Below are positions 5,863 through 26,899 of a stretch of DNA of 41,521 nt, piece by piece (the stretch's first letter is position 1; every line of letters starts with the position of its first letter). The stretch is taken from NCBI GenBank assembly GCA_012727535.1, contig JAAYGU010000105.1, forward strand, positions 1-41,521, written 5' to 3'. The stretch is from Bacillota bacterium. Lineage in GTDB: Bacteria > Bacillota > UBA4882 > UBA10575. The position numbers were made by a program, and so were the translations under genes. The notes beneath the pieces are model-generated. The model saw nothing but the letters and a program-made list of their open reading frames with translations, ran no database searches and was not told where the DNA came from.

Positions 5863-6313
5863 GCGTTTGGAGGAGGTTTTAACCAAAGGTCCTAAACTGG
5901 CCGGACGCTCTTTGATTGTGCTTGATGAAGCCCTTGAACTGTTAGAAAAGATCAAACTGACTCTGCCCGCGGAGGTAAAAGAAGCCCAACAGCTACTAGC
6001 GCAGAAGGAAAAGATTCTCCAAACGGCGAGGGAAGAAGCAGAGCAGGTTATTCAGCGTTCTTCCAAGGAGGCACAGAGAATCCTCTCTGAACATCACTTA
6101 ACGAGATTGGCGGAGGAAAAGGCGAACGCCATCAAGGAGCAGGCTTATAGCGTTGCCCGCCAGGCAGAAAAGGAATTGGCCCTGTATGCCCAGGAGGTTT
6201 TGGGTAAGTTAGAGGAAAACCTGATTGAGGCGTTAAAAGTCGTTCATCGGGCGAAAGATAGCTATGCGGAGTTGGAGAGAGAAGAAGGAGAGCGCCGGGA
6301 AGAACATGACTAA
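5831..6313 (+). CDS. Coiled-coil protein of the ATPase/F0 subunit B-like type
   Basis: The 160-residue protein is almost wholly charged helix, rich in E, K, A and Q, with long heptad-like stretches (for example [20 protein letters not shown]). Proteins like this are often found after coaD in Firmicutes and annotated vaguely as ATPase or F0 subunit B-like; the true role is unknown. It has no membrane segment, so it is not a real F0 b subunit. Start ATG 5831 lies inside coaD and the gene overlaps the following cmk by 8 bases, which implies coupled translation. Confidence 0.65.
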
Positions 6314-7640
6314 TAAATTGACAGAAAAAAAGAAGAGATTAGAGCAGGCTAAACGGAGAAAGATCACCATCGCGATTGATGGTCCGGCCGGTTCGGGGAA
6401 GAGTACAGTGGCCAAAAGAGTCGCGGAAGAATTAGGAATCTTATATCTTGATACCGGAGCAATGTACCGGGCGATCACTTTAAAGGCCTTACGTAGTGAA
6501 TTGTCCCTGGACAACCAGGAAGAATTAACAAGGTTAGCCGGTCAGGTCGAGTTGGACTTCCAACGGATGCCGGATGGCTCCCATCATCTCTTGATGGATA
6601 GTGAAGATGTCAGCGAGGAGATCCGGTCCCTACCGGTTTCGCAAAAGGTTTCGATCGTGGCCGCTGTGCCCGGAGTCCGGGCACAGCTGGTCAAACAGCA
6701 GAGAGAAATTGGCGCCCGTGGTGGTGTGGTCATGGACGGGCGAGATATAGGCACGGTGGTTCTTCCCCAGGCTGATTTGAAAATATTCCTCACGGCTTCG
6801 TTAGAGGAGAGAACCCAGCGGCGTTGGCTGGAGTTAACAGCGAAGGGAGTTAATGTTACGCCAGAAGAGATTAAAGAGGAGCTCATCCGCCGGGATGCAC
6901 TTGACTCCGGTCGGGAAGTAGCACCGTTGCGCCCGGCGGTGGATAGTGTGACTATTGACACTAGTAACCTCAGCATCGAGCAGGTGGTGGAGCGGATTTT
7001 GGCGTTGTCTTCTTCTCTAAAAGTACCGGAAGCGCCGGGATTGCTCTATAAGATTTGTGGCTCCTTCCTCTACTTTTGCTTAAAGGTTTTTTACCGCTTT
7101 TCGGTCGAGGGTGCCCACCATCTTCCAGCGACGGGGCCGGTGATTGTGGCCAGTAATCATACTAGTTTGCTTGATCCGATCGTTGTGGGCTGTAGTATTT
7201 TACCGAGGCAGAGGCCGGTTAGGTTTATGGCGAAAGAGGAGTTGTTTCGGATTCCCCTTTTAGGACCGCTCATCCGCAAACTGGGGGCTTTTCCGGTGAG
7301 GCGGGGAAAAGGAGACCGGGCGGCCTTACGGGCTGCAATGGAAGTGTTGAAAGAGGGGAAAGTCCTTGGGATTTTTCCGGAAGGAACCAGGTACAATGAT
7401 AACAAGCTCCATCCTTTGCGGCATGGTGTCTCCTTGTTAGCGATGGAGACGAATGCCAAGATCTTGCCGGTGATTATCCGTGGCACCCAAAACCTTACTT
7501 TCTTCCGTTTTCCGCGGATCAAGGTTTATATCGGGGAAGCTTTTACGCTTGCTCCGGTCGGTACGAAAAAAGAGATGGTGCTGAAAGGAACCGCCGAAAT
7601 CTACTCGCGCTTACTTAATCTATGGGAAAATGCTAATTAA
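6306..7640 (+). CDS. cmk-plsC: Fused cytidylate kinase / 1-acylglycerol-3-phosphate acyltransferase
   Basis: This is one 444-residue frame holding two enzymes. Residues about 19-240 are cytidylate kinase, which phosphorylates CMP and dCMP: IAIDGPAGSGKSTVAKRVAE is the P-loop, followed by YLDTGAMYRA, DGRDIGTVV and RRDALDSGREVAPL. Residues about 255-440 are a PlsC acyltransferase, which makes phosphatidic acid from lysophosphatidic acid: the HX4D motif is in NHTSLLD (about residue 284) and FPEGTR is near residue 357. The genes are commonly neighbours in Firmicutes; here no stop or internal start with a good ribosome site separates them. Start ATG 6306 overlaps the preceding gene. Confidence 0.92.
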   Translation: MTNKLTEKKKRLEQAKRRKITIAIDGPAGSGKSTVAKRVAEELGILYLDTGAMYRAITLKALRSELSLDNQEELTRLAGQVELDFQRMPDGSHHLLMDSEDVSEEIRSLPVSQKVSIVAAVPGVRAQLVKQQREIGARGGVVMDGRDIGTVVLPQADLKIFLTASLEERTQRRWLELTAKGVNVTPEEIKEELIRRDALDSGREVAPLRPAVDSVTIDTSNLSIEQVVERILALSSSLKVPEAPGLLYKICGSFLYFCLKVFYRFSVEGAHHLPATGPVIVASNHTSLLDPIVVGCSILPRQRPVRFMAKEELFRIPLLGPLIRKLGAFPVRRGKGDRAALRAAMEVLKEGKVLGIFPEGTRYNDNKLHPLRHGVSLLAMETNAKILPVIIRGTQNLTFFRFPRIKVYIGEAFTLAPVGTKKEMVLKGTAEIYSRLLNLWENAN

Positions 7641-7660
7641 CCGGTGGCGGAGGCGAAAAA

Positions 7661-9763
7661 TTGGGTAAGATTATCATTGGGGAAAAAGCTGGATTTTGTT
7701 TTGGGGTAGAACGGGCGCTCCGGATTGCGCGGGAAAGTAGAGCACAAAATACGCAACCGGTTTATATTTTAGGTTCCTTGATTCATAATCCCCGTGTCGT
7801 CGCCAAGATGGAAGCGCGTGGGATTAAGACCATTTCCGACTTGAGCGAAGCCGAGCCGGGAGGGATTTTACTAATCAGGTCGCACGGGGCCGGCCCCTCT
7901 TTGCTTAAGGCGGCGGAGGAGCGGGGTTTGCAGGTGATCGATGCCACCTGTCCGTTTGTTAAACAGGAACAGAAGCTGGCCCAGAAACTGTTGGCTGAAG
8001 GCTTTCAGGTAGTAGTGGTGGGAGAACCGCAGCATCCTGAAGTCAAGGCGGTAGTTGAGGCCGTTGACGGTCAAACCGTGGTTCTTGATCCAAAGGACCA
8101 GGCGGCGGTCGCGGCGACTAAATTTTCCGCCCGGGTCGGCTTAGTCTGTCAGACCACTCAACCACTGGAGAATCTGACCCAGGTGGTTACGGCCTTACTT
8201 CCCCGGGTGAAGGAGTTAAAAGTTTATAATACGATCTGTCATGCCACTCGCGAACGACAGGAGGAAACGGCAAAACTTGCGCGGGATGTTGATCTGTTGT
8301 TGGTCGTTGGTGGAAAGAACTCGGCGAATACGCGAAAACTTGCCGAAATTGGGGCTTCCCTGACACCAACTTATCATATAGAATCAATAAGAGAGATTGA
8401 CCCTCAATGGCTGAGAGGGAAAAACTTAATTGGGGTAACAGCCGGAGCGTCGACTCCTCAAGAGCAGATCTCCGAGGTTGTTGACTGGCTGAAAGAAAAT
8501 TCTGCAGGAGGTATAGACATGGAAGAAAATCAGATTATGAACGAGCAACCGGCGGAAGGAGTAAAGGAAGAAGTACAGTCCGAAGCGGCGGTTGACAATG
8601 GGGAGATGCTGCTAAGCTTAGAGATTCCCCGCCTCGAGGAAGGGAGCATTGTGGAGGGGATCGTGGTCGAAGTGAACAAGGAGGAGGCTTCGGTTAGCGT
8701 CGGCGGCAAGTCTGAACTGCAGATCCCCCTGCGGGAACTGACGAATGAAAATGTCGCTTCTGCCGAGGAAGTCGTTAAGAAGGGTGATAAAATAAAAGTA
8801 ATGGTCCTTAAATCGGCCGATGAAAAAACGATGCTCTCGAAGAAACGGGCCGATGAGGAGTTAGCCTGGAACAAACTGGCCGAGGATTATCAGAATCATC
8901 GCCGCCTCAGTGGTAAAATTGTCCAGGCGATTAAGGGTGGACTCCAAGTCAAGTTGGATGGAGTGACCGCATTTCTCCCGGCTTCACAGGCCGACCTCGG
9001 TTATGTTAGTGACCTATCGACCTTGGAAGGGTTGGAGGCAGAGTTTTATCTGATCGACTTTGACCGTGAGCGTCGTCGGGCGGTACTTTCCCGCCGGGAG
9101 GTACTGGAAGAGGAACGACGGGCGGTTGAGGAGAAGGTTTACAATGAATTGGCCGAAGGAGAAAAGCGCACCGGGGTGGTGACCAGACTGACACCGTTTG
9201 GCGCCTTCGTAGACTTAGACCAAGGGGTGGAGGGATTATTACATATCTCCGAGATCGCTTGGGACCGATTGCAACATCCGTCGGAACGCTTGACCGAAGG
9301 ACAGCAAATCGAGGTACTGGTGACCAAGGTTGACCGGGAAGCGAAAAGGATCTCGCTCAGTCTTAAACAGTTATCCCCTCATCCCTGGACGAACATCGAG
9401 GAAAAATACAAAGTGGGCGACCTTGTAAAAGGAAAAGTTGTCCGTCTCACTTCGTTCGGCGCCTTTGTTAATCTGGAAGAGGGGGTCGACGGACTAATTC
9501 ATGTCTCCCAATTAAGTGACCGGCGGGTTGAGAAACCAGAGGAAGTTGTCCAAGTCGGACAAGAGGTGCAGGTGAAGGTGATCAAGATCGAGCCGGAGCA
9601 GAGGAGAATTGGCTTGAGTCTGCGCGAAGCCCAGGAGGAGAAGGTCGTTAAAGAGAGTAAGGAAAGGACCGTTCCCGGCTTGGAAGACAAGCCGCTCTCT
9701 TCCAATCTTGGTGCGCTCTTAGCGGAAAAGATGGAACAGCTTAAAGGGGAAGGCACCGAATAA
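7661..9763 (+). CDS. ispH-rpsA: Fused 4-hydroxy-3-methylbut-2-enyl diphosphate reductase / ribosomal protein S1
   Basis: The 700-residue protein joins IspH (residues about 1-285), the last enzyme of the MEP isoprenoid pathway, to an S1-type RNA-binding protein. IspH cluster cysteines are C13 in GFCFGV, about C97 in ATCPFV and about C193 in TICHAT; the STPQEQ motif is also present. The C-terminal part has four S1 folds starting near residues 328, 413, 501 and 586; the last two carry the classic FGAFVDL and FGAFVNL turns. Such fusions are known in clostridia. The start is a TTG eight bases after GGCGGAGG. A second, stronger ribosome site plus in-frame ATG lies exactly at the domain junction (8506-8521). 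Confidence 0.95.
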   Translation: MGKIIIGEKAGFCFGVERALRIARESRAQNTQPVYILGSLIHNPRVVAKMEARGIKTISDLSEAEPGGILLIRSHGAGPSLLKAAEERGLQVIDATCPFVKQEQKLAQKLLAEGFQVVVVGEPQHPEVKAVVEAVDGQTVVLDPKDQAAVAATKFSARVGLVCQTTQPLENLTQVVTALLPRVKELKVYNTICHATRERQEETAKLARDVDLLLVVGGKNSANTRKLAEIGASLTPTYHIESIREIDPQWLRGKNLIGVTAGASTPQEQISEVVDWLKENSAGGIDMEENQIMNEQPAEGVKEEVQSEAAVDNGEMLLSLEIPRLEEGSIVEGIVVEVNKEEASVSVGGKSELQIPLRELTNENVASAEEVVKKGDKIKVMVLKSADEKTMLSKKRADEELAWNKLAEDYQNHRRLSGKIVQAIKGGLQVKLDGVTAFLPASQADLGYVSDLSTLEGLEAEFYLIDFDRERRRAVLSRREVLEEERRAVEEKVYNELAEGEKRTGVVTRLTPFGAFVDLDQGVEGLLHISEIAWDRLQHPSERLTEGQQIEVLVTKVDREAKRISLSLKQLSPHPWTNIEEKYKVGDLVKGKVVRLTSFGAFVNLEEGVDGLIHVSQLSDRRVEKPEEVVQVGQEVQVKVIKIEPEQRRIGLSLREAQEEKVVKESKERTVPGLEDKPLSSNLGALLAEKMEQLKGEGTE
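8506..8521 (+). promoter_or_regulatory. Internal ribosome-binding site and ATG at the IspH/S1 junction
   Basis: AGGAGGT at 8506-8512 is followed after six bases by an in-frame ATG at 8519. This is a better site than the one at the gene's own TTG start. Initiation here would give a free 414-residue S1-like protein from the same mRNA. Confidence 0.6.
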
Positions 9764-9821
9764 AGCAGTATCCCCCAGATTGTTTTTAATAATTTAATTT
9801 GCGATTGGGAATTGAACAAAG

Positions 9822-9848
9822 ACATCAGCGACGGCTGGTGTTTTTTTT
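9822..9848 (+). terminator. Rho-independent terminator after ispH-rpsA
   Basis: ACATCAGC (9822-9829) pairs with GCTGGTGT (9834-9841), with one T-G wobble and a 4-base loop, and runs into eight T. It closes the asp23-to-rpsA gene run. Confidence 0.85.
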
Positions 9849-21262: not shown

Positions 21263-21565
21263 ATGGGTAAAGTTAAGTTTGGACCGGGGTTTTATATTAC
21301 TATATTGTTTGTTTTGGTGATTGGACGATATGATATTAAGAATTATTTGTACTTGTTCCCGACCCCTTATTTAATTGGTATCGCCTTTTTGGATAATGCT
21401 TTCGCTGATTTGCCGGCGTATATTATGAAGCATCATAAAATTATTATTAACCTGGTGTTTTTAAGGTACATATCTCCACACATAATTAACTGGATAATTA
21501 AATTCATTACCGGAGGTTTAACACAGTATAAGGGAAGAAAAAATAAGATTAATTATGCCAACTAA
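21263..21565 (+). CDS. Hypothetical membrane protein of the islet
   Basis: The 100-residue protein is not one I recognise. It is hydrophobic with about two to three possible membrane stretches (FYITILFVLVIG, PTPYLIGIAFL, IIINLVFLRYIS) and a basic C-terminal tail (KGRKNKINYAN). ATG 21263 follows AAAGAAAGGTGGTGGG. It is the first gene after the islet promoter and the VbhA gene follows by 13 bases, so it is probably co-transcribed with the toxin-antitoxin pair. Codon use is strongly A/T-rich. Confidence 0.55.
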   Translation: MGKVKFGPGFYITILFVLVIGRYDIKNYLYLFPTPYLIGIAFLDNAFADLPAYIMKHHKIIINLVFLRYISPHIINWIIKFITGGLTQYKGRKNKINYAN

Positions 21566-21578
21566 GGAGGTTTGTTTG

Positions 21579-21797
21579 ATGGACAAGGTTCGGGAAATTG
21601 CTGAGAGAAGGAAATATTTTGAATCTGCACTTGCAAGTTCAAGAATGGAAGGCCATGAATTTACTAAAGCGGAACTTGATTTGATCGAGAGAGTTATAAA
21701 AGGAGAACTTACGGAAGAGCAAGCAATGGATTATTTTCGGTTTTTCATTTCTGAACTAAAAGAATTGAAACCTGAATTGTTCAGCAAGGAGGGATAA
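21579..21797 (+). CDS. Antitoxin VbhA-like protein
   Basis: The 72-residue protein fits the VbhA class of Fic antitoxins. The inhibitory motif (S/T)xxxE(G/N) is present as SSRMEG (residues 20-25), on a helix-rich body with ERVIKGELTEEQAMDYF. The glutamate is known in this family to block ATP gamma-phosphate placement in the Fic active site. ATG 21579 follows AAGGAGG by eight bases. The Fic toxin gene follows five bases after its stop. Confidence 0.82.
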   Translation: MDKVREIAERRKYFESALASSRMEGHEFTKAELDLIERVIKGELTEEQAMDYFRFFISELKELKPELFSKEG

Positions 21798-21802
21798 TAT
21801 TT

Positions 21803-22414
21803 ATGTCTGATCCTTACGTGTATAAAAACACTCATGTTTTAATTAATAAGTTTGGAATAACGGATGGAGATTTTCTTGATGCTACAGAACGATTTTTTAC
21901 AGTATTTCGAGAAAAACAACTTCGCGATAATCCGATTAAGGGCAATTTTGATTATGATCATTTAAAGAAAATACACGGTTTTATTTTTCAAGATGTGTAT
22001 GATTGGGCCGGCCAGGAACGGATTGTAAACATTTCTAAAGGTGGGACGGATTTTTGTCCTGTCCAGAATATTCAACCTTTTGCTGAATCGATATTCAATG
22101 ATCTTAAAAAGCAAAACTATTTTAAAGGTCTTAGTCAAGAGGAATTTGCAGTAAAGGCGGCCCACCTTTTTTCGGATATTAACGAATTACATCCATTTCG
22201 AGAAGGAAATGGAAGAACGCAAAGAGAATTTATGCGTGAACTTGCTCTTAATGCTGGTTATGAATTAGACTTGAACAAGGTTCCTAAAAAGTTGATGATG
22301 GATGCTTCTATTCAAGGTCATTATGGATTGAACTATGAATTTGAAAACATATTCAAGGCACATTTAAAGCCACTTGATCGCACAAAAGATATTGACTTTA
22401 ATCTTGACAGATAA
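21803..22414 (+). CDS. Fic-family AMP-transferase toxin
   Basis: The 203-residue protein carries the Fic motif complete as HPFREGNGRTQR (about residues 131-142), with the catalytic histidine and the phosphate-binding GNGR loop. Upstream are LKKIHGFIFQDVYDWAGQ and the flap-type GGTDFCPVQ. It lacks an internal inhibitory helix, which agrees with a separate VbhA. Fic enzymes transfer AMP or other groups to protein hydroxyls; known VbhT-type targets are topoisomerases, but the target here is unknown. A GGAGGG site lies 12 bases ahead of ATG 21803. Confidence 0.9.
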   Translation: MSDPYVYKNTHVLINKFGITDGDFLDATERFFTVFREKQLRDNPIKGNFDYDHLKKIHGFIFQDVYDWAGQERIVNISKGGTDFCPVQNIQPFAESIFNDLKKQNYFKGLSQEEFAVKAAHLFSDINELHPFREGNGRTQREFMRELALNAGYELDLNKVPKKLMMDASIQGHYGLNYEFENIFKAHLKPLDRTKDIDFNLDR

Positions 22415-26468: not shown

Positions 26469-26800
26469 AAAAAACCTCCTCCCTGAGGTTGGGACGAGGT
26501 TAATCGCGGTGCCACCCAAGTTGACCCGAAGGTCCGCTTGCTCCGGTACTCATCATGAAATGAACGACCGGTATCCGGATAACGGTGGAGGCCGCCGGAA
26601 CCTACTGAAAAAGCACGCTGTACATCCGCAGTTTGAAATAACACTTGCTGCTGGGGGCGTGATGAAGCAATTATCATCACGGTGCCGCGTGTTGTTCAGC
26701 TCCGGGCTCACAGGTCCATTCTGTTTTCCGCCGGACCGGTTCGCACCTGCCACCGGCTCTCTTGACCTTAAAGAAAACATACTAGTCCTGTTCATTGCTT
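26469..26800 (-). ncRNA. T-box riboswitch of trpS (tRNA-Trp)
   Basis: On the - strand the leader has an AGTA-type stem I bulge, a GAACCGG/CCGG stem I region, and a TGG specifier triplet within GAATGGACC, matching Trp. The T-box core GGTGGCACCGCG is at 26505-26516. The variable T-box base is C, which pairs with discriminator G73, the base of bacterial tRNA-Trp. The terminator arms AACCTCGTCCC and GGGAGGAGGTT (one mismatch) follow, then TTTTTT at 26469-26474. Exact 5' end is estimated. Confidence 0.88.
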
Positions 26801-26899
26801 TAGAGGTAATTTAACCATTTTAAACAATTATATGCATGATGAGGTGGTTTGTCAACCAGTCCGGGCCAACTAAACGGGGAGCGATGGGGGACGAGGCCC

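Follow-up and report, generated by a model that had tools for sequence, protein, structure and literature searches.

An open reading frame (ORF) that joins the isoprenoid enzyme IspH to the RNA-binding protein S1 lies in the stretch of DNA analyzed here (the window; 41,521 nucleotides of contig JAAYGU010000105.1 from a Bacillota bacterium), and the question it raises is whether such a gene makes one polypeptide or two. An earlier note, made from the window alone, had pointed to an AGGAGGT followed, after six bases, by an in-frame ATG that would release a 414-residue S1, and we found the coordinates, spacing, frame, and product length to be correct. An internal Shine–Dalgarno (SD) element with an in-frame start codon is thus present inside the ORF and lies, as the note had also claimed, between the two domains: the LYTB match ends at residue 277, the ATG is codon 287, and the match to NF005208 begins at residue 321 (Table 1). 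The window protein scored 761.7 bits over residues 3–686 against NF000907, the model for 'bifunctional' IspH/S1 (cut-off, 624), marking the gene as an apparent member of that fusion class, with IspH activity, including a 4Fe-4S cluster, predicted from the LYTB match. A search of the window's genome found no second full S1 gene, only S1-domain matches. By contig search, the gene's close named relatives were in uncultured Bacillota, one labelled Hydrogenispora sp., and two more distant, cultured relatives, Desulfofundulus thermosubterraneus and D. australicus, had the same site. As argued below, the internal start of the window gene is conserved and very probably working.

Table 1. Positions of the features discussed, in window coordinates.
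Feature	Position	Strand	Details
Upstream ORF that reads as Cmk-PlsC	6264..7640	+	Comparison linker without strong SD and start
GGAGG Shine–Dalgarno of full-length TTG	7649..7653	+	7-base spacer; duplex energy -9.5 kcal/mol
IspH-S1 fusion ORF, full length	7661..9763	+	TTG start; 700 aa
IspH (LytB) domain, residues 4-277	7670..8491	+	PF02401, E 6.5e-89
Internal Shine–Dalgarno AGGAGGT	8506..8512	+	In-frame reading A-G-G; -11.6 kcal/mol
Spacer ATAGAC between internal SD and ATG	8513-8518	+	
Internal ATG (codon 287)	8519..8521	+	In frame; S1 start in split relatives
Predicted free S1, four S1 repeats	8519..9763	+	414 aa; PF00575, 4 matched stretches; NF005208, residues 321-695
Intrinsic-terminator-like hairpin and T run, 3′ of gene	9818..9845	+	12 pairs
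T-box leader	26487-26804	-	RF00230, 112.4 bits

The internal site had also been judged better than the TTG start of the full-length gene, and the calculated duplexes with the anti-SD agreed, albeit by a margin that is modest in the window (-11.6 versus -9.5 kcal/mol). The observed SD strength at the junction was reached by only 3% of 100 synonymous recodings. Across the window, the pattern AGGAGGT-N4-9-ATG occurred four times versus 0.42 expected, a count that none of 100 shuffles reached, and the other three occurrences coincided with, or lay close to, the starts of other ORFs. Next door to the gene is an ORF that we take to be a second fusion, Cmk-PlsC, and codons 200–300, spanning its junction, held no comparable site, the best being a TTG at -7.2 kcal/mol. 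A promoter inside ispH, considered as another route to free S1, was rejected, because promoter-like matches did not rise above shuffles: there were 3 such matches overall versus 2.4 in shuffles, with a single weak sigma-70-like one inside ispH (7761-7789). Rfam identified no known RNA element at the junction, its T-box and tRNA matches lying elsewhere in the window, and terminator-like sites were in no clear excess in the region (6 versus 4.8 in shuffles).

We read 16 genomes of the window's own family (f1), of which 11 carried the fused gene and 5 a split pair, and AGGAGG followed by the S1 ATG was kept in all 16, with a spacing of 7 nt in 14 genomes, 8 in one, and 13 in one. The end of ispH, by comparison, moved about: among the split genomes, its stop lay 2 nt before the S1 ATG in two (G014 and G005) and overlapped the S1 start as ATGA in two (G008 and G010), and in another (G004) the S1 ATG lay 22 nt before the end of ispH in a different frame, which places the S1 start inside ispH in G004, G008, and G010. 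Because this cassette is kept in 16 of 16 genomes despite the changing frame of ispH, the ribosome-binding site stays while the frame shifts around it. Both arrangements occur within a single genus (g2, in which G014 is split), and one gene (G003) is fused by virtue of a one-base spacer difference from G010 and G008, possibly an assembly error. The two glycine codons that spell the SD, 283 and 284, were GGA GGT without variation in 10 fused family members, and only 4 of the 33 invariant glycine columns in the whole alignment used a single codon. The family's site is located 10 codons further on than that of other fused genes. In the other nine split genomes of the class, the S1 start, read by eye, was behind an SD and adjoined the ispH stop.

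To cover the phylum we searched 398 genomes, of which 386 gave a match, in a sample that is biased to genes resembling the window's and in which fused genes were taken among the matches listed as one piece. We read 159 loci (145 fused, 14 split), followed by a further 20, of which 19 were fused and one was split; in a set of 61 genomes, a hand count gave 43 fused and 15 split, with G036 and G049 (genes apart) and G047 (neither) excluded. A strict SD with an in-frame start was present at 164 of 164 fused junctions, compared with 59 of the 1766 remaining 50-codon windows in these ORFs. Moreover, the strongest in-frame SD–start combination of the whole ORF fell at the junction in 142 of 145 fused genes, when 16.3 were expected from the candidate codons, and in 19 of the 19 fused genes read later. 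The earlier note had named a lack of conservation in other fusions as what would tell against its reading, in which one mRNA yields a fusion and, through the internal start, free S1; the site was instead present in all 16 family genomes and in all 164 fused genes read, which supports that reading. Its placement of the site at the junction also held, with the amendment that the site is not special to the window gene and usually lies in the C-terminal helix of IspH. Outside the window's family, the site occupied one place, G-A-S-T-P-x-x-I-I-(E/K)-E-V-x-x-x-M at the IspH end, and by our own assignment of the helix it would be mostly within the last IspH helix, not in free linker.

The internal SD was stronger than the full-length SD in 156 of 158 genes (median, -12.6 versus -6.9 kcal/mol), in a comparison for which the full-length start was assigned approximately and the best nearby SD was taken, favoring the full-length site. 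The full-length start of these genes was TTG in 77, ATG in 52, and GTG in 29, and the internal one was ATG in 144, GTG in 12, and TTG in 2. Folding of the internal start region was weaker by a mean of 1.0 kcal/mol than in synonymous recodings of the fused genes (P = 2.8e-7), and in the window gene was -0.7 versus -4.9 kcal/mol. This 1.0 kcal/mol is what the recoding comparison leaves of a raw difference of 4.9 kcal/mol from other ORF positions, which we discounted because the composition of the linker is biased.

At the first SD codon, Glu was encoded by GAG in 93 of 93 cases (33.3 expected from the codon usage of the individual genes), Lys by AAG in 51 of 51 (18.1 expected), and Arg by AGG in 5 of 5; at the second, Glu was GAG in 139 of 142 (46.2 expected) and Gly was GGG in 11 of 11 (1.8 expected). 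The P value of 0 computed for Arg at +9 reflects a numerical artefact and was disregarded. Six codons past the first SD position, 147 of 153 genes outside the window's family had a start codon (138 ATG, 6 GTG, and 3 TTG), and of the remaining six, three had one a codon earlier and three had one further downstream. When genes were clustered at 60% identity, 70 of the 75 clusters retained a start codon at this position (+15). The codons at the site are fixed for AGGAGG and not for the protein, and the site is conserved at the nucleotide level among orthologues. This signal is one of the sum over related, non-independent genes, only 68 of 164 being individually unusual at the 5% level when compared with synonymous recodings.

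As a control we used 60 standalone ispH genes from Bacilli, which are distant (~30–36% identity to the window's IspH), after dropping six further loci (L274-L279) from which the exact motif was absent. These 60 genes had neither the SD codon bias nor a start codon at the site: 48 encoded the equivalent Glu by GAA and 11 by GAG, 34 encoded the equivalent Lys by AAA and 22 by AAG, and at the Met position 58 of 60 had Leu or Ile and none had Met. A caution comes from the distance between AGGAGG and ATG, which is 11 nt in most fused genes versus 7 in the window, although it is softened by the f33 genes described below and by S. aureus, for which longer SD spacing is reported in an excerpt of PMC13009471. 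At codon GASTP+11, Val was encoded by GTG in 1 of 150 fused genes versus 35.5 expected, such that AGGAGGTG, whose pairing with the anti-SD would be stronger still, was avoided; perhaps too strong a site might stall the ribosomes that read through.

A family of split relatives (f33) was informative about what the site does. Of its 41 genomes searched, 30 became loci, all of which were read, and in 30 of 30 the genes were split, with S1 in a different frame from ispH. The best-placed S1 start in 29 of the 30 was a GTG inside ispH, 13–37 nt before the end of that gene, and it was preceded by the SD of the fused genes, spelled by the same helix codons of IspH, at a spacing nearly that of most fused genes. 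There is hardly any other way in which the f33 S1 could be made than by initiation at that GTG, and the fused genes appear to be the f33 arrangement with the two frames in register.

Each of several other readings would do away with initiation at the fused junctions. The SD-like stretch might be an elongation pause that lets IspH fold before S1 is made, as might be expected from its position where the IspH domain ends and from a proposal that intragenic SD-like stretches pause ribosomes (known to us from a reference title in an excerpt of PMC6203783). However, a pause needs no start codon, yet ATG, GTG, or TTG stood at a fixed distance in 147 of 153 genes and nearby in the other six; standalone ispH had no such SD, and the f33 start is in another frame. 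We regard a pause without initiation as improbable. Slightly more improbable still, in our estimation, is that the site is a relic of a formerly separate rpsA start, non-working since the fusion. Split relatives do use the site as their S1 start, which fits such an origin, but a relic should decay, whereas the site keeps its codons unchanged in genes that have diverged elsewhere, their bias persists over the 75 clusters, and fused and split forms coexist in genus g2.

The remaining two readings we find very hard to credit. One of them has the SD stimulating programmed frameshifting from ispH into S1, and it draws on the differing frames of the split relatives and on their SD ~10 nt upstream, a spacing known for dnaX-type frameshifting. 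In-frame genes need no shift, yet they keep both the SD and the start codon; frameshifting also leaves the constraint on the start codon unexplained, and the frame relation varies between family genomes. The other appeals to chance, or to protein-level constraint on the IspH helix (I-E-E-V-V), whose residues are indeed conserved and for which GAG GAG GTN happens to be SD-like. Against it, the Glu, Lys, and Arg that interchange at the site are encoded only by GAG, AAG, and AGG, Gly occurs only as GGG, and standalone ispH uses mostly GAA and AAA, so unless the sampling produced an artefact, this reading is already refuted by the codon counts.

We therefore return to initiation, and hold it highly likely that the window gene is an in-frame overlap of ispH and S1, with the TTG giving the fusion and the internal ATG giving free S1. 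Ribosomes entering at the weaker upstream TTG would read IspH through into S1 and make the fusion protein, and others would bind AGGAGGT at 8506-8512, start at ATG 8519, and make free S1 of 414 residues, so that one mRNA would offer two entries, the weaker at ispH and the stronger at S1. In this view the site corresponds to the rpsA start of the split relatives; nucleotide-level selection would maintain it even as the surrounding ispH frame and stop drift, and where the ispH frame matched by chance, the pair would be annotated as a fusion. That ribosomes use the site in the window's organism is what we infer from these sequence comparisons. Free S1 is likely, with less certainty, to exceed the fusion in amount, because the internal SD is the stronger (156 of 158 genes) and because anti-SD affinity raises translation efficiency in C. 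ljungdahlii, according to an excerpt of PMC6203783. The earlier note's argument from differing amounts presupposes S1 at ribosomal levels. According to an excerpt of a review (PMC10931766), the ribosomes of low-GC Gram-positives such as Bacillus lack S1, which is non-essential in these bacteria, and 'ribosomal amounts' of S1 therefore cannot be assumed. For the phylum at large our preference is only slight: most Bacillota 'bifunctional IspH/S1' genes may be overlapping ispH and rpsA with coinciding frames, free S1 being the main S1 product and the fusion a lesser by-product of ribosomes that meet no stop, with the frame drifting almost freely and selection keeping the embedded ribosome-binding site, not the fusion.

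IspH-RPS1 'Rosetta stone' fusions with the same protein architecture, mostly from Bacillota, were described previously (Rao et al., 2015, PMC4746011; NF000907). In that study the fusion was treated as one polypeptide, whereas the window gene is predicted to give two products. Only the fusion protein was described, that of Clostridium thermocellum being expressed in E. coli with an N-terminal tag, and because the tag was N-terminal, free S1 would have escaped detection. The terms 'start codon', 'Shine', 'internal', and 'linker' do not occur in the main text of that paper, which built a ribosome-RelA-iron-sensing idea on the fusion. In genomes carrying the fusion, its authors saw no additional ispH or rps1, in agreement with our finding no second full S1 in the window's genome. 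Among open-licence papers searched by title and the start of the abstract, we found no report of an internal start in ispH-rpsA, and the C. ljungdahlii profiling paper (PMC6203783) contained no mention of IspH or of an internal start.

Rpn toxin-antitoxins (PMC10327210) and two-polypeptide endolysins (PMC9430671) are built as here, from one ORF with two starts and a shared stop that releases the C-terminal part, and Cas10d/Cas11d, as told in an excerpt of PMC10327210, is of the same in-frame internal-start kind. The products of these genes share a complex or act upon one another, whereas IspH-S1 combines an isoprenoid enzyme with an RNA-binding protein not known to work jointly with it, and relatives use its internal start out of frame. 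In-frame genes within genes are already known; what is new is the scale, the two unrelated halves, and the indifference to frame. Overlapping, translationally coupled operon genes of the ATGA type also exist, and the split relatives belong among them, with ATGA overlaps in two family genomes and deeper ones in f33, but the window's two genes overlap in a shared frame and ribosomes of the first would not stop.

Fusions serve as evidence for joint function, an inference that weakens if a fusion is an in-frame overlap with a working internal start. If our reading is true, annotation misses a protein in genomes with ispH-S1, knock-outs and proteomics of 'IspH-S1' need re-reading, and ispH-S1 provides a clean natural experiment on how a conserved enzyme helix can harbor a ribosome-binding site whatever the frame.

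Some further observations concern the family and the window. The IspH/S1 linker that follows the S1 start was hypervariable, growing by Glu/Ala/Thr-rich repeats (L036 and L037), and the distance from the GASTP motif to S1 ranged from 57 to 130 codons in fused family members. A genome with a split pair contained a second, 43% identical IspH-S1 match (L040; G005:C54:3267-5123), either on a foreign contig or as a true second copy, which we left out of the analysis. Elsewhere in the window, 21555-22414 holds a small ORF followed by one with the motif HPFREGNGR, an arrangement resembling a Fic protein with its antitoxin, and the AGGAGGT found there points to ATG 21579, eight codons past the first ATG of the ORF.
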